NCBI RefSeq assembly: GCF_024346055.1
Contig: NZ_JAGQCH010000014.1
Location: 1-64,000 of the forward strand
DNA from: Cyanobium sp. Cruz CV13-4-11
GTDB taxonomy: Bacteria; Cyanobacteriota; Cyanobacteriia; PCC-6307; Cyanobiaceae
Direction of reading: 5' to 3'
DNA: 64,000 nucleotides
The notes beneath the pieces were generated by a model that had not been told where the DNA came from, did not search any database, and was given only the letters and a program-made list of their open reading frames with translations. A program made the position numbers and the translations under genes. Below, piece by piece: positions 56,605 to 64,000 of this stretch (its first letter is position 1; each line of letters opens with the position of its first letter).

Positions 56605-56679
56605 GTCGACCAGGGGGTTCCAGTAGCAACCGTCACAACGGTCAGCCCCATGGACCTTCACCATGCCTGAGCGGACAAT

Positions 56680-56820
56680 GCTTCTAGGGTTCCGATCCTC
56701 CTTTGCAGGCTCTGCCGGCAAAGAAAAGGATGTCTGGTCCGAGAGAAGCACATTCACTGTTCTGGGGCCCATGTCCCCAAAACAGTGAATGGCACGGAGG
56801 GACAAAAGCCCGGGAGACCG
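56680..56820 (+). ncRNA. Guanidine-I (ykkC) riboswitch
   Basis: The leader of the guanidine operon has the conserved blocks of the guanidine-I aptamer in order: CTAGGGTTCCG (56684-56694), CTGGTCCGAGAG (56734-56745) and ACGGAGGGACAAAAG followed by CCCGGGAGA (56794-56817). Between the second and third block lies a long stem with arms CATTCACTGTT (56751-56761) and AACAGTGAATG (56781-56791). These blocks match what I know of the ykkC motif, which binds free guanidinium and turns on the gene below. The start codon of gdmH is 30 bases further. Confidence 0.92.
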
Positions 56821-58068: not shown

Positions 58069-58476
58069 GTGCACGAAGTCGACATGACCCGCTGCCTGCT
58101 CCTCTCCATGCACGAGTGGAAGCAGCAGCACGCCCCCCGGGAGCCCCACGTGGACCGGGTCCACCTCGAGGTGGGCACCTTCACCTGCGTCGAACCCGAC
58201 CAGCTGGTGGTCACCTGGTCCGATGCCGTCAAAGGCACCTGGCTCGACGGGTCCGAACTGGTGATCGAGTCGGTGCCCCTTGTGGGTCGCTGCGTCCGCT
58301 GCCAGGCCACCTACAGCCCCGATGCCGCCGACGGCTTCCGCTCCCCCTGCTGTCAGCACCCGATGGAGGAGATCGTCAGCGGCCGCGAGCTGCGGATCCG
58401 CTCGGTCGCCTACGGCTTCGAGCCCTCTCCCGCCCACGTACCGCCCACCACTCCCCGTCCCACCGCCGCCCGCTGA
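58069..58476 (+). CDS. HypA-like nickel chaperone
   Basis: A GTG start 4 bases after gdmH gives a 135-aa protein beginning MHEVDMTRCLL, the nickel-binding MHE motif of HypA. The zinc site is CVRCQATYSPDAADGFRSPCCQHP, with one CxxC pair and a CC pair in place of the second CxxC. A Pro-rich tail follows residue 122. HypA normally hands nickel to hydrogenase, but no hydrogenase genes are present here; the paralogue linked to GdmH is thought to load its nickel. Confidence 0.85.
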   Translation: MHEVDMTRCLLLSMHEWKQQHAPREPHVDRVHLEVGTFTCVEPDQLVVTWSDAVKGTWLDGSELVIESVPLVGRCVRCQATYSPDAADGFRSPCCQHPMEEIVSGRELRIRSVAYGFEPSPAHVPPTTPRPTAAR

Positions 58477-58482
58477 TCCGCC

Positions 58483-59184
58483 ATGCACATGCCCCTCGAA
58501 GACACCCTCGGCCTCAACCTGCTGGCGGCCAACCAGCACCGGGCCGAGCACAACCGCGAGCACTTCGACGCCTGGAACCTGCTCTGCCTCAACGTGATGA
58601 GCAGTCCCGGGGCCGGCAAGACCTCCCTGCTGGAGCGCAGCCTCGCCGCCCTCTCAGGCCGCTGGGCCATGGCCGTGCTGGAGGGCGACATGACCACCCT
58701 GCTCGATGCCGAGCGGCTGGAAGCCGTGGGGATTCCGGTGGTGCCGATCACCACCGGCCGTGCCTGCCACCTCGATGCCGCCATGGTGAGCGGCGGCCTG
58801 AAGCTGCTCCACCAGCGGCTCGATCCCGCCGCCCTGGACATCCTCTGGGTGGAGAACGTGGGCAACTTGGTCTGCCCCGCCGAGTTCGCCATCGGTGAGC
58901 ACCGCAAGGTGGCCCTCCTGAGCGTCACCGAGGGGGACGACAAGCCGCTCAAGTACCCGGTCATGTTCCGGGAGGCCGATTGCGTGCTGATCACCAAGGT
59001 GGATCTGCTGCCCCACCTGCCGGTGGATGTGGAGCGGATCGAGGCCCACATCCGCCAGGTCAACCCCCGCACCGCCGTGTTCCGCCTCTCCGCCACCACC
59101 GGAGAGGGCTTCGAGGCCTGGCACGACTGGCTCGACGCCCAGCGCCAGGCCGTTCAGACCTCCCCCACCCTGCTGCACGCCTGA
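58483..59184 (+). CDS. HypB-like GTPase for nickel insertion
   Basis: The 233-aa SIMIBI-class GTPase has Walker [42 protein letters not shown] (switch region with Cys-His metal site), [39 protein letters not shown] and the base-recognition motif LITKVDLL. There is no His-rich N-terminus. It partners the HypA-like protein to deliver nickel to GdmH. The stop overlaps the start of the glutamine-synthetase-like gene by one base. Confidence 0.88.
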
Positions 59185-60548
59185 TGAGTCACCAGCATCC
59201 CGCTTCCGATGCCACCACGGCCCTGCAGGCCGACCTGCGCTCGAAGGGGGTCCGCTACGCCCTGGCGAGCTTCGTCGACCTGCACGGGGTGAGCAAGGCC
59301 AAGGCCGTACCCCTCGCGCACCTCGGCCAGATGATGGCCGGCTCCGAACTGTTCACCGGGGCGGCCCTCGACGGGGTTCCCCAGGAGGTGAGCGACGACG
59401 AGGTGGCCGCCGTCCCCGATCCCGCCAGCGCCACGGTGCTGCCCTGGCAGCGGGAGGTGGCCTGGTTCGCCAGCGACCTGCATCTGCACGGCCAGCCCTT
59501 CGACGCCTGCAGCCGCCACATCCTTGGCCGTGTCCGCCAGGAGGCCGCCGCCATGGGCTTCCGCTTCAACCTCGGCATCGAGACCGAGTTTTTCGTGCTC
59601 AAGAAGGGCGCGGCGGGCGGCTGGGTGCCCTACAGCGATCGCGACACCCTCGACAAACCTGCCTACGACGTACGCGGTCTGCTCGACAACCTGCCCTGGC
59701 TGGACGAGCTGGTGCAGGCGATGAACGATCTGGGCTGGGGGGTCTATTCCTTCGATCACGAGGATGGCCCTGGCCAGTTCGAGACCGACTTCGATTACGC
59801 CGAAGTCCTCACCATGGCCGATCGGCTGACCTTCTTCAAGCTGATGGCCAAGGAGATCGCCCATCGCCATGGGCTCCTGGCCACCTTCATGCCCAAGCCG
59901 TTCGGTGACCGCACCGGCAGCGGCGCCCACTTCAACATGTCCCTGGCCGATGGGCAGACGGGTGCCAACCTGTTCGCCACCCCCGAAGCCACTCCGGGGA
60001 AGGTCACCCGGCTGGCCGAACACTTCATCGCCGGCGTGCTCCGCCATGCACCGGCCATCTGCGCCGTGATCGCTCCGACGGTCAACAGTTACAAGCGGTT
60101 GGTGGCCCAGGGGAGCATGTCGGGATTCACCTGGGCTCCGGTCTTCGTTTGCTACGGCAACAACAATCGCACCAACATGCTGCGCATTCCCTCACCGGGG
60201 GGACGGGTGGAATGCCGGGCCGCAGACATCTCCTGCAATCCCTATCTTGGCGCCGCCCTGATGCTGGCGGCCGGGCTGGAAGGGATCCGCGAAGAACTCG
60301 ATCCCGGAGCACCCAATCTGGTCAATGCCTACACACTCAGCGCGGCGGAACGGGCCGAACGGGGCCTGACCATGCTGCCGCGGACCCTCGGTGAGGCCGT
60401 CGAGGCTTTCGCCCTGGATCCACTTGCCAAAAGCGTATTCGGTGATGCCATGTTCGAGGCGTTTATCACCTACAAACGTGAAGAGTGGGAGTCCTACCAC
60501 TCTGCGGTTTCCGAATGGGAGCAGCAACGTTATCTGGAGTTCTTCTGA
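59184..60548 (+). CDS. glnT: Type III glutamine synthetase-like glutamate-ammonia ligase
   Basis: The 454-aa protein has the glutamine synthetase catalytic core: FNLGIETEFFVLKK (metal Glu), YSFDHEDGPGQFETDFDYAEVLTMADRLTFFK, FMPKPFGDRTGSGAHFNMSL (ATP and NH3 site) and NNRTNMLRIPSPGGRVECRAADISCNPYLGAALMLAAGL (substrate and Glu flap). The start region KGVRYALASFVDLHGVSKAKAVPL matches GlnT-type enzymes, which include glutamine and gamma-glutamylamide synthetases. Within this operon it could capture ammonia from guanidine, or glutamylate a guanidine-derived amine. The main GlnA is not in the window. Confidence 0.82.
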   Translation: MSHQHPASDATTALQADLRSKGVRYALASFVDLHGVSKAKAVPLAHLGQMMAGSELFTGAALDGVPQEVSDDEVAAVPDPASATVLPWQREVAWFASDLHLHGQPFDACSRHILGRVRQEAAAMGFRFNLGIETEFFVLKKGAAGGWVPYSDRDTLDKPAYDVRGLLDNLPWLDELVQAMNDLGWGVYSFDHEDGPGQFETDFDYAEVLTMADRLTFFKLMAKEIAHRHGLLATFMPKPFGDRTGSGAHFNMSLADGQTGANLFATPEATPGKVTRLAEHFIAGVLRHAPAICAVIAPTVNSYKRLVAQGSMSGFTWAPVFVCYGNNNRTNMLRIPSPGGRVECRAADISCNPYLGAALMLAAGLEGIREELDPGAPNLVNAYTLSAAERAERGLTMLPRTLGEAVEAFALDPLAKSVFGDAMFEAFITYKREEWESYHSAVSEWEQQRYLEFF

Positions 60549-60649: not shown

Positions 60650-61660
60650 ATGTTTAAGTTTTCCTCGATCCGTCGTCAACACCGGGCCCTATCCCTTGTT
60701 CTCGTAGCCAGCCTCGGGGGAGGATTGCTGGCCGGTTGTCAGCAACCAGCCAGCCAGGAAGCACCGGTAAAAATCGGTTACAGCGCCTGGCCAGGCTGGT
60801 TCCCGTGGAAAGTCACGGAAGTCAAGGACCTGTTCAAAGCGCAGGGCGTATCGGCCTCGATGCAGTGGTTTGACGGCTACCTCGACTCCATCAACGCCCT
60901 CAACGCCGGTCAGCTTGACTGCAACAGTCAGACCCTGAATGACACCATCAGTTCCGTGGCTGGCGGAGCGGATCTGCAGATCGTGCTGCAGAACGATTTC
61001 TCCACGGGCAACGACCAGATCATCGCCGCAGCGGAAATCGCCTCCATCCCTGGTCTGAAGGGCAAGAAGGTGGCCGCCGAAGAAGGCACGGTCGACCACT
61101 TCCTGTTGTTGAAGGTGCTCAAGGACGCAGGTCTCTCGGCCAAGGACATCACCTTCGTCCCCCTGGAAACCGGCGCCGCCGCAGCGGCCTTCGCTGCCGG
61201 CAGGGTGGATGCGGCGGGTGTCTATGCCCCCTTCACCACCCAGGCCCTGAAGCGACCGGGCAGCCGGGCCCTGGCCACCTCCAAGGATCACCCCGGGGCG
61301 ATCAGCGATCTGCTCGTCTGCCGCACCGATTTCGTCGCCAAGAATCCCGAGAAAGTCCAGAAGATCGTCAACGCCTGGTTCGCCACCTTGAAGACCATCG
61401 AGGACGATCCCGCCGGCACCCTGCCAATCCTGGTGGAGCGCTCCGGTGTCAGCGAGGCGGAGTTCAAGGAGTACAACGCCGGCACCACCATCCAGACCCT
61501 CGCGGAAAACCGCAGCAACTTCAAACTTGGCACCACGATGCTGTCGCTGCCCTATGCCGCCGAGCAGATCAGCGCCTTCCTGGTCGAAACGGGCCTGGCC
61601 AAGACCAAGCCTGATCTGACCAACCTGCTGAATTCCCAGTTCGTCGACAACGCCCCTTGA
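60650..61660 (+). CDS. ABC solute-binding lipoprotein, probable guanidine binder
   Basis: The 336-aa lipoprotein has a signal (LVLVASLGGGLLAGC) and an NMT1/SsuA-type fold with VKIGYSAWPGWFPWKVTEVKDLF, WFDGYLDSINALNAGQLDCNSQTLNDTI, LKGKKVAAEEGTVDHFLLLKVL and FAAGRVDAAGVYAPF. The aromatic GYSAWPGW loop and acidic residues would suit a cation such as guanidinium. In Synechocystis the equivalent genes (sll1080-1082) follow gdmH and hypAB. The gene begins 101 bases after glnT and its stop overlaps an alternative TTG start of the permease. Confidence 0.85.
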   Translation: MFKFSSIRRQHRALSLVLVASLGGGLLAGCQQPASQEAPVKIGYSAWPGWFPWKVTEVKDLFKAQGVSASMQWFDGYLDSINALNAGQLDCNSQTLNDTISSVAGGADLQIVLQNDFSTGNDQIIAAAEIASIPGLKGKKVAAEEGTVDHFLLLKVLKDAGLSAKDITFVPLETGAAAAAFAAGRVDAAGVYAPFTTQALKRPGSRALATSKDHPGAISDLLVCRTDFVAKNPEKVQKIVNAWFATLKTIEDDPAGTLPILVERSGVSEAEFKEYNAGTTIQTLAENRSNFKLGTTMLSLPYAAEQISAFLVETGLAKTKPDLTNLLNSQFVDNAP

Positions 61661-61665
61661 CCGCC

Positions 61666-62442
61666 ATGGTCCGGTCTCCTGCCCTGCGCCGCTTCTTGCA
61701 TCATCCCTGGGTCCTGGGGGTGCTTGGCCTCCTCACGGTCTTTGTGATGTGGTTTCTGGCCACCTCCAGCGGCATGGTCGACAAGCTCTTCCTGCCCGGG
61801 CCCGGGGCGGTGTGGCTGGCGGGCAGCGACCAGTTTCAGCAGGGGATTCTGGTCAAGGACGCCATCGCCAGCATCCAGAGGGTCTTCCTGGGATTCGTGA
61901 TCTCCGCGGGGCTGGCCTTGCCGATCGGCATCGCCATGGGCACAAACCGGACGATCTGCTATCTGCTCGAGCCGCTGATGGGGTTGATCCGGTACATGCC
62001 GGCGCCGGCCTTCATTCCCCTGCTGATCATCTACTTCGGTCTGGAAGAGCTGCCCAAGGTGATGCTCATCTTCATCGGCACCTTTTTCTTCAACACCTTG
62101 ATGATCATGGACGCGGTGAAGTTCGTTCCCTCCGAATTGGTGGAAACGGCGCTGACTCTGGGGGGCCGGGGTCTGCCGATCCTCACCAGGGTGGTGGCCC
62201 CCTTCATTGCCCCCCAGGTGCTCGACACCTACCGGATCAACATGGCATCGGCCTGGAATCTCGTGATCGTTGCCGAACTGGTGGCAGCCAACGAGGGCCT
62301 GGGCAAACGCATCAGCCTGGCCCAGAGATTCCTGCGCACCGATGAGATCTTCGTTGGCCTGATCGTGATCGGCCTGATTGGCCTGATCATCGATCTCGGC
62401 TTCCGGTTCCTGATGCGCCGGGCCTGCTCCTGGGCCAACTGA
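61666..62442 (+). CDS. ABC transporter permease, guanidine-type operon
   Basis: The roughly 258-aa protein has six hydrophobic segments (WVLGVLGLLTVFVMWFLAT, FLGFVISAGLALPIGIAMG, MPAPAFIPLLIIYFGL, VMLIFIGTFFFNTLMIM, AWNLVIVAELVAAN, IFVGLIVIGLIGLIIDLGF) and the EAA-type loop ETALTLGGRGLPILTRVVAPFIAPQVLDTYR. It is an SsuC/TauC-type membrane subunit that passes the ligand across the inner membrane. ATG 61666 is preferred; a TTG at 61657 is also in frame. Confidence 0.88.
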   Translation: MVRSPALRRFLHHPWVLGVLGLLTVFVMWFLATSSGMVDKLFLPGPGAVWLAGSDQFQQGILVKDAIASIQRVFLGFVISAGLALPIGIAMGTNRTICYLLEPLMGLIRYMPAPAFIPLLIIYFGLEELPKVMLIFIGTFFFNTLMIMDAVKFVPSELVETALTLGGRGLPILTRVVAPFIAPQVLDTYRINMASAWNLVIVAELVAANEGLGKRISLAQRFLRTDEIFVGLIVIGLIGLIIDLGFRFLMRRACSWAN

Positions 62443-62447
62443 ACCCC

Positions 62448-63215
62448 ATGCATCTTCAGGTTTCCAACGTCTCCAAGAGCTTCGGTGAGGGGCGCGATTG
62501 CAAGCTCGTCCTTGAGAATATCAGCTTTGAGCTGGTGTCCGGCCAGTTCATGGCCCTGGTGGGAAGCTCGGGATCGGGCAAGTCCACCGTGATGCGCTTG
62601 ATCGCCGGTCTGGAGCGCCCCAGTGAGGGCACCATTCACCTCGATGGTGAGCGGGTCCAACGCCCCGGCTCCGACCGGGGCATGGTGTTCCAGAAGTACA
62701 GCCTCTACCCCTGGCTGACGGCGGCCCAGAACGTCGCCTTCGGCCTGTCGCTCCAGGGCAGGGACAAGGCGGAGATCCGGGAGCGGACCGCTTACTTCCT
62801 CGACGTGGTCGGCCTGGCGGATGCGGCCCGGCTGCTGCCGCGGGAACTCTCCGGGGGCATGCAGCAGCGGGTGGCGATCGCCCGGGCCCTGGCCACCGAG
62901 CCGAAGGTGCTGCTGCTGGATGAGCCCTTCGGGGCGCTGGATCTGCAGATCAGGGAGTCGATGCAGGAGTTCCTCCACGATCTCTGGAAGACCACGGGAC
63001 TCACGGCCCTGCTGATCACCCATGACATCGAGGAAGCCCTGCTCCTCGCCGGCACGGTCCACATCATGGCGCCACGGCCCGGCAGGATCGTTCACACCGT
63101 GGCCGTGCAGCTGGATCGCTCCGATCTGCGCCACCTGCGGGTGTCCCAACCCTTCCTGGAACTGCGCGAGGAACTGGCGAGCCGCCTGCGCAGCCTCGAC
63201 GGCTCCCTGCTCTGA
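62448..63215 (+). CDS. ABC transporter ATPase, guanidine-type operon
   Basis: The 255-aa ATPase has Walker A GSSGSGKST, Q-loop VFQKYSLYPWLTAAQNV, signature LSGGMQQR, Walker [14 protein letters not shown] and switch ITHDIEEA. It powers the importer with the permease encoded 6 bases upstream. The protein is of SsuB/TauB size and lacks extra regulatory domains, unlike the cmpC-type fusion at 26934. The Rieske oxygenase gene starts 11 bases downstream. Confidence 0.92.
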   Translation: MHLQVSNVSKSFGEGRDCKLVLENISFELVSGQFMALVGSSGSGKSTVMRLIAGLERPSEGTIHLDGERVQRPGSDRGMVFQKYSLYPWLTAAQNVAFGLSLQGRDKAEIRERTAYFLDVVGLADAARLLPRELSGGMQQRVAIARALATEPKVLLLDEPFGALDLQIRESMQEFLHDLWKTTGLTALLITHDIEEALLLAGTVHIMAPRPGRIVHTVAVQLDRSDLRHLRVSQPFLELREELASRLRSLDGSLL

Positions 63216-63225
63216 ACGCCCTTCG

Positions 63226-64000
63226 ATGCCGTCCGCCTCAGCCGCTTTCCTGCCGCCGGAGCTCTACCGCTCCGAGGCCGTCGCCGCCCTCGAGCGGGAG
63301 CACGTCGCGTCGCGTTTCTGGCATCCCGTCGTCGTCGCCGCCGATCTGCCCCCTGGCCATGTCCGGGCGGTGGAGTTGCTGGACCTGCCGGTGCTGCTCA
63401 GCCATGGCCATGACGGCGTCGTCCGGGCCTTCCGCAACCGTTGCCCCCACCGGGCCGTGGCCTTCCGGGAGCCAGCCGACGGCAGCGTGGCCTGCCGCAG
63501 GCTGGTGTGCCCGTACCACGGCTGGACCTACGACCTGGGCGGAACGCTGCTGGCGGCCGCCCGGGAAGCGGAGTTCGTCGAACCGTTCGATCGCGAGGCC
63601 TGGCCGCTGGAGGTTCTCGGCTGCCGGGTGCGGGCCTCCCTGATCTGGGTGGCCCTCGGGGCCGATCCGTTCCCGCTGGACGATCAGCTGGATCTGCCGC
63701 TGCAGGAAGCCCCCGACGCCCTCGCCCGAACCCTGGTGCCCCTGGCCTTCCACAGCCAAGCCCTGACCTGCAACTGGAAGATCGCCAACGACAACACCCT
63801 CGACGACTATCACGTCGCCATTGCTCACCCCACCACCCTGCACCGGATGCAGGGCCCGGTGCGCCACTACAGCCATCGCTTCGGCACCTGGGCCAACGTG
63901 CTCGCCACCCCCTGGCTGGACGGGGACAGCGAATTTCTCACCTTCGGCCTGCCGCCCTGGAACCACCTGCTGCTGTGGCCCGACGGACGCCTGGCCCTGA
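63226..64000 (+). CDS. Rieske non-haem iron oxygenase, alpha subunit (cut by window edge)
   Basis: The visible 258 residues contain the Rieske cluster motifs CPHRAVAF and CPYHGWTYDLGG (CxH and CxxH) and the start of the catalytic domain with NWKIANDNTLDDYHVAIAHPTTL, which supplies the His pair and bridging Asp of the mononuclear iron site. Such oxygenases hydroxylate rings or remove N- or O-methyl groups. It lies 11 bases after the ATPase gene on the same strand. The substrate could be an alkylated guanidine; this is speculation from context. The C-terminus is outside the window. Confidence 0.85.
   Translation, partial: MPSASAAFLPPELYRSEAVAALEREHVASRFWHPVVVAADLPPGHVRAVELLDLPVLLSHGHDGVVRAFRNRCPHRAVAFREPADGSVACRRLVCPYHGWTYDLGGTLLAAAREAEFVEPFDREAWPLEVLGCRVRASLIWVALGADPFPLDDQLDLPLQEAPDALARTLVPLAFHSQALTCNWKIANDNTLDDYHVAIAHPTTLHRMQGPVRHYSHRFGTWANVLATPWLDGDSEFLTFGLPPWNHLLLWPDGRLAL

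Follow-up and report, generated by a model that had tools for sequence, protein, structure and literature searches.

A probable gamma-glutamyl ligase of the GmaS branch accompanies guanidine genes in Cyanobium and in proteobacteria

The guanidine operon of Cyanobium sp. Cruz CV13-4-11 contains a gene for a glutamine synthetase (GS)-type ligase, which probably has an overlooked part in guanidine metabolism, that of joining an organic nitrogen compound, and not ammonia, to glutamate. The gene lies in a 64,000-nucleotide window, which is the whole stretch of DNA that was analysed (contig NZ_JAGQCH010000014.1, positions 1 to 64,000). The gene is genuine and intact, strong purifying selection acts on it, and its linkage to guanidine genes is not a matter of chance. 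The protein is a member of the type III/GmaS (gamma-glutamylmethylamide synthetase) branch, where it forms a clade of its own. We consider it rather likely that the ligase is of GmaS type, serves the guanidine regulon specifically and gamma-glutamylates an organic nitrogen acceptor, not bulk ammonia. The type of reaction is taken from the family, while the identity of the acceptor, the order of the steps and the role of the accompanying Rieske enzyme are guesses. The case is one of a guanidine operon carrying a GmaS-related ligase clade for which the literature searched describes no role.

The guanidine operon and its riboswitch

The ligase is the fourth gene of an operon with the order Guanidine-I riboswitch, gdmH-hypA-hypB-GS-ABC importer-Rieske oxygenase (Table 1). 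The riboswitch also scores 110 bits with our own covariance model R1, the window being among the sequences from which R1 was built. The naming of gdmH follows the operon position of sll1077 (PMC8390497, PMC12186494). Intergenic gaps are about 10 bases or less, the exception being 101 bp ahead of the binding protein. No terminator-like site was found in any gap of the operon, and a search of the operon for a sigma-70-type promoter found none. The original prediction had the ligase overlapping hypB by one base, and it does so, with the hypB TGA at 59182-59184 and the ligase ATG at 59184. Its place ahead of the importer, embedded in the guanidine operon, is likewise borne out by gene order and riboswitch. 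The ligase thus shares an apparent transcription unit with the upstream riboswitch, and the proposed co-expression with guanidine hydrolysis, as a predicted shared transcript, is strongly supported by the same two features.

Past the operon (C6:64459-68808, equivalent to L006:8460-12809) there is a TIM-barrel gene on the minus strand, and on the plus strand a set comprising a fatty-acid-desaturase-like gene, a MetX-like alpha/beta hydrolase gene and a GS-type gene of the RhGmaS clade. The ligase at locus L250, which is of the same type as that in the window, also neighbours a TIM-barrel gene (42% identical), an alpha/beta hydrolase gene (46%) and a desaturase-like gene.

Table 1. Features of the guanidine operon and of its ligase, in window coordinates
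Feature	Coordinates	Strand	Evidence or remark
Guanidine-I (ykkC subtype 1) riboswitch aptamer	56673..56818	+	RF00442 83.7 bits, gathering score 63
gdmH-type guanidine hydrolase, Arginase/agmatinase family, 404 aa	56850..58064	+	PF00491 2.7e-77; operon position as sll1077
hypA-type nickel chaperone	58069..58476	+	PF01155 9e-24
hypB-type nickel chaperone GTPase	58483..59184	+	TIGR00073 278.6 bits, cutoff 121
GS-type gamma-glutamyl ligase (predicted), 454 aa	59184..60548	+	TIGR03105 558.3 bits, curated cutoff 469.6; own clade
Asp50' loop counterpart, codons 54-61, SELFTGAA	59343..59366	+	Thr58 where GlnA has ammonium-binding Asp
Putative acceptor pocket, codons 188-205, YSFDHEDGPGQFETDFDY	59745..59798	+	Asp191, Glu200 kept; Ser189, Asp202 clade-specific
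ABC importer substrate-binding protein, SsuA family	60650..61660	+	TIGR01728 221 bits, cutoff 163.5
ABC importer permease	61657..62442	+	PF00528 2.4e-21
ABC importer ATPase	62448..63215	+	PF00005 3e-35
Rieske oxygenase gene	63226..64000, on to contig base 64272 beyond the window	+	contig past the window; solved-structure relatives

The ligase gene and its place in the family

The translated ligase frame has no internal stop and carries a Gln-synt_C domain (Pfam, 7e-98). Its dN/dS of 0.03-0.09 against eight close relatives excludes a chance open frame. The protein passes the NCBIfam model TIGR03105, named 'type III glutamate-ammonia ligase', a name that is no proof of ammonia as the acceptor. 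It falls below the cutoffs of the models for GlnA (328 vs 429 bits) and PuuA (NF045547; 272 vs 650 bits). The top solved relatives are the glutamate-methylamine ligase 9qur, which is the nearest at 389 bits, and RhGmaS (7cql). The Cyanobium genome beyond the window was searched family by family and holds other GS-domain genes, one of them on contig C1 with a 467-aa open frame. A second GS-type gene, at C6:67561-68808, groups in the RhGmaS clade, apart from the operon ligase.

A phylogeny against GmaS had been proposed as a check on the original prediction. In a tree built by quick search, with clade members picked by similarity, the operon ligase lies outside both GmaS clades, its own clade being separate from those of RhGmaS and 9qur (SH-aLRT 95). 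As a control, 249 Pseudomonadota genomes were screened, of which 31 had a TIGR03105 match. Four of the matches belong to the operon-ligase clade; those in genomes G725 and G761 are some 1.4 kb away from a Guanidine-I riboswitch, and for that in G564 the distance is about 10 kb. Of the roughly 25 GmaS-type genes in the tree, none has a Guanidine-I riboswitch nearby, although some 10 of their genomes contain one.

Linkage to gdmH within the family

In the window's family 300 genomes were examined, of which 98 have gdmH and 57 a close orthologue of the ligase. Nearly all of the orthologues (55/57) follow gdmH on the same strand at a distance of 1.1-1.5 kb, and the remaining two are cut by, or sit at, a contig start. 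The original prediction had allowed that comparison across genomes might find the gene normally unlinked to gdmH; with 55 of 57 orthologues close behind gdmH, the linkage stands. A ligase is missing from 42 of the 98 gdmH genomes, in which the importer normally comes straight after hypB. Mapped on a tree of the remaining operon proteins, the presence of the ligase changes 8 times, with at least 6 independent gains or losses forced. From these two results the ligase is an accessory part, repeatedly gained and lost. It is also not needed for guanidine use, because so many gdmH genomes are without it and because Synechocystis, which uses guanidine, has an operon described without a ligase (PMC10094980). 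In a phylum-wide cyanobacterial sample the ligase is rare outside a few groups.

Decayed pieces of the ligase are found at the hypB/binding-protein site in genomes G319 (L209:4610-5377) and G441 (L214:8715-8924), which shows that loss was recent; both genomes are without the Rieske gene. In G460 (L215:4882-5937) neither ligase nor binding protein is present, the permease directly follows hypB and the Rieske gene is kept, an arrangement that reflects either a deletion or an assembly fault.

Relatives beyond gdmH operons

The neighbourhoods of the 80 nearest relatives of the ligase were taken up to 10 kb on each side, and 73 of them contain a local guanidine marker. The 7 relatives without a marker in that span are 3 betaproteobacterial and 4 alphaproteobacterial. 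Thirty loci of Cyanobium/Synechococcus type have the order gdmH-hypA-hypB-GS, followed by importer and Rieske gene where the contig permits. At all 8 loci of Nodosilinea/Leptolyngbya type a Guanidine-I riboswitch directly precedes GS-importer-(Rieske) and gdmH is absent locally; each of these 8 genomes has a gdmH (83-84% identical) elsewhere. At the 4 such gdmH sites that were examined, hypA and hypB come next and there is no matching importer.

In beta- and gammaproteobacteria the ligase keeps company with the carboxylase route. The betaproteobacterial loci L066 and L067 have a riboswitch-preceded operon of ligase, importer, a carboxylase of about 1200 aa and two further genes, which from place and sequence we read as a putative carboxyguanidine deaminase pair. 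The same carboxylase set occurs at Marinobacter, Alcanivorax and Derxia loci. Altogether, clade members lie in guanidine-carboxylase clusters at L059, L061, L062, L064, L066, L067, L079 and L251, and a sister ligase that is 53% identical (L249, genome G695) is also inside such a cluster. At 32 gammaproteobacterial loci a urea/guanidine-carboxylase-associated binding protein is adjacent to the ligase or within about 1 kb of it; the representative from L059 scores 503 bits with TIGR03427 (cutoff 334), and its counterparts at the other loci share 65-93% identity with it. A Guanidine-I match was obtained in 17 of 20 non-cyanobacterial host genomes, 16 of them above cutoff, while in three alphaproteobacterial hosts none was found genome-wide. 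What the ligase accompanies is the entire guanidine regulon, carboxylase route included, and not gdmH alone.

Several of these loci carry additional genes. The four alphaproteobacterial loci without a local marker are L083, L084, L085 and L087, and three of the four genomes are those without the riboswitch; a creatininase-family gene lies beside the ligase in L084 and L085, and Rieske genes are near it in L084, L085 and L087. Next to Guanidine-I riboswitches, the clusters L047:1-8799, L079:1339-7453 and L066:106-6623 include genes for a desaturase-like oxygenase, an SDR protein and an EamA exporter, with creatininase-family, isochorismatase-family and MBL-fold genes in addition in L047 and L079. 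These clusters resemble a pathway, so far undescribed, for some compound related to guanidine. In L249:9977-14500 the sister ligase and a creatininase-family gene overlap by 11 bp, with an MBL-fold gene alongside. A 2-oxoglutarate dioxygenase gene at this locus overlaps that of a 263-aa protein without a Pfam match, whose AD-x-R motif resembles the catalytic D49/R51 reported for MgdL.

The Rieske companion

The closest solved relatives of the Rieske enzyme are carnitine monooxygenase and Rieske demethylases. In a wider sample of operons, 44 have both the GS and the Rieske gene, 3 GS only, 17 Rieske only and 16 neither, so that the Rieske gene is found in 44/47 GS-positive and 17/33 GS-negative operons. 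The association is marked by Fisher's test (p 2e-5), whereas a comparison of independent pairs on the tree yields median p values of 0.125-0.25. A strict partnership is not upheld, the tree-corrected coupling of gain and loss not being significant; coupling is suggestive, and the Rieske gene is a frequent companion of the ligase, not a strict one.

Active site and alternative acceptors

Residues were mapped on RhGmaS numbering, and 81 sequences of the ligase clade were compared with 34 GmaS-type sequences. The catalytic residues of RhGmaS are Arg312, Asp177 and Glu186, and in GmaS Trp300 replaces the flap Glu and Ala48' the Asp50' of true glutamine synthetases (PMC7948447). The ligase counterparts of Asp177, Glu186, Arg312 and Trp300 are Asp191, Glu200, Arg329 and Trp317, all fixed in the clade. 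The ammonium-site residues Asp50' and flap Glu327 of GlnA correspond to Thr58 and Trp317. Five of the methylamine-pocket residues (Tyr147, Gln175, Asp177, Glu179, Glu186, Asn188 and Lys30') are kept in the clade and two are changed, Gln175 to Ser189 and Asn188 to Asp202, in 81/81 sequences; Gln175 is fixed in 34/34 GmaS-type sequences. Since the Asp188, Phe189 and Asn237 (RhGmaS numbering) of the ligase are present in GlnA too, these residues may be ancestral and not specificity changes, so that only part of the pocket difference is new. The case for Asp188 as a guanidinium-specific change is weakened by the same comparison. The ligase combines GmaS-like catalytic residues with a lost ammonium site and a different acceptor pocket.

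A specific form of the favoured reading is that the ligase gamma-glutamylates guanidine itself to gamma-glutamylguanidine (5-oxoarginine), thereby detoxifying or assimilating it. The common factor of the clade is guanidine control together with degradation genes of two unrelated routes, and the changes of Gln to Ser and Asn to Asp, with Glu55 in the Asp50' loop, bring smaller, more acidic side chains to the pocket. Guanidinium is, however, a very weak nucleophile, the Asp at the changed position is shared with GlnA, GdmH or the carboxylase fully handles guanidine alone, and no such enzyme or product was found in the literature searched. We regard guanidine as an unlikely acceptor.

The original prediction had offered two functions, local re-fixation of ammonia and gamma-glutamylation of a guanidine-related amine. 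Gamma-glutamylation of some nitrogen compound other than ammonia is favoured here, and re-fixation has given way. As an extra glutamine synthetase, the enzyme would capture ammonium from GdmH and urease; it has the fold and the automatic name for this, and GdmH yields ammonium and urea (PMC12186494). However, where a true glutamine synthetase has Asp50' and the flap Glu the ligase has Thr and Trp, much as GmaS has Ala and Trp, and GmaS, which is without key ammonia-binding residues, prefers methylamine (PMC7948447). The genome has further GS-domain genes, including the 467-aa frame on C1, and in Nodosilinea-type genomes the ligase stands outside the gdmH operon. With the ammonia-site residues gone, re-fixation is out as the leading reading and we think it quite improbable.

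The ligase could also be a common gamma-glutamylmethylamide synthetase, acting on methylamine, that strayed into the operon; this would agree with the nearest solved relative being a glutamate-methylamine ligase and with the retained RhGmaS catalytic residues. Against it, the clade is apart from both GmaS clades, the invariant pocket Gln175 of GmaS is Ser throughout the clade, an RhGmaS-clade paralogue is already present in the genome, and GmaS-type genes are unlinked to guanidine riboswitches. A Glu_synthase domain search of the Cyanobium genome found no small MgsC-type subunit of the N-methylglutamate route, the matches being one full of GOGAT length and one weak and partial (24.8 bits). On tree, pocket, paralogue and the missing MgsC-type subunit this is no longer a leading reading either, and we give it little credence.

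That the gene is a chance neighbour or passenger is scarcely credible: its patchy occurrence, with 42/98 gdmH genomes lacking it and 8 changes (at least 6 forced) on the tree, would suit such a gene, but the gene is kept at one site under strong selection, its clade goes along with guanidine genes in distant phyla whose gene orders differ, and chance insertion is contradicted by these linkage data.

Proposed function

A GmaS-type ligase for an organic nitrogen compound of the guanidine regulon could work as follows. The riboswitch would switch the operon on when guanidine is present, and the importer would take up guanidine and perhaps related compounds. HypA and HypB would load GdmH with nickel, and GdmH would hydrolyse guanidine to urea and ammonium, a reaction established for Synechocystis (PMC8390497, PMC12186494). 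The ligase would activate glutamate as gamma-glutamyl phosphate and couple it to an organic nitrogen compound (ATP + glutamate + acceptor-NH2 -> gamma-glutamyl-NH-acceptor + ADP + Pi). Guanidine may itself be the acceptor; other candidates are amines and substituted guanidines that enter through the same importer. The ligase would be an accessory step beside GdmH or the guanidine carboxylase, often with an oxygenase (the Rieske enzyme in cyanobacteria), which may oxidise the ligase product or a substituted guanidine. The purpose is probably to turn a related compound into guanidine or assimilable nitrogen. There is a precedent for such a role: the additional genes mgdH/mgdL of a guanidine-carboxylase operon turn methylguanidine into guanidine (PMC12508155). 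More tentatively, the clade could be a new class of enzyme that uses ATP to gamma-glutamylate guanidine (or an alkylguanidine) and mark an undescribed branch beside the guanidinase and guanidine-carboxylase routes, which we hold as a doubtful but conceivable extension.

Guanidine riboswitches are widespread, but the literature searched describes only export, two ways of degrading guanidine and a side branch for methylguanidine. That one ligase clade goes with guanidine control in cyanobacteria as well as in proteobacteria indicates that a substrate or step is missing from this picture, and the clade is a precise candidate for assay. A 'type III glutamate-ammonia ligase' in a guanidine operon should not be taken as a sign of ammonia assimilation, and such genes should not serve as methylamine (gmaS) markers in environmental surveys.

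Comparison with known systems

The ligase resembles GmaS (RhGmaS 7cql; 9qur) in fold, at about 40-44% identity, in the catalytic Asp/Glu/Arg set and in having Trp for the flap Glu; the Asp50' position is Ala in GmaS and Thr in the ligase, Asp being absent from both. It differs from GmaS in its own clade, in Ser for Gln175, Asp for Asn188, Phe for Trp189 and Asn for His237, in its guanidine-regulon linkage, and in that no MgsC-type N-methylglutamate synthase subunit was seen in the genome. With GlnA (type I) it shares the fold, the glutamate-, metal- and ATP-site residues and the three residues Asp188, Phe189 and Asn237, but it is without Asp50' and the flap Glu and scores below the GlnA cutoff. 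PuuA is in principle also a GS-type gamma-glutamyl-amine ligase, from whose model the ligase is far removed in score.

The operon is similar to the cyanobacterial gdmH-ghaA-ghaB-ABC operon (Synechocystis sll1077-1082) in having gdmH, nickel chaperones, an ABC importer and a riboswitch (PMC10094980, PMC10119275, PMC12186494). It differs from described gdmH operons in the GS-type gene inserted between hypB and the binding protein. The picocyanobacterial guanidine cluster has been described with a Rieske gene, as in the window, in a text that is silent on the ligase (PMC10119275). Our search found no literature linking the ligase to guanidine genes, although its coverage was incomplete and an earlier mention is possible. 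Like the ligase, mgdH/mgdL are accessory genes of riboswitch-controlled guanidine operons (PMC12508155). However, they encode a 2-oxoglutarate dioxygenase and a lyase, whereas the window has a ligase and a Rieske enzyme; near the sister ligase in L249 there is indeed a 2-oxoglutarate dioxygenase gene.
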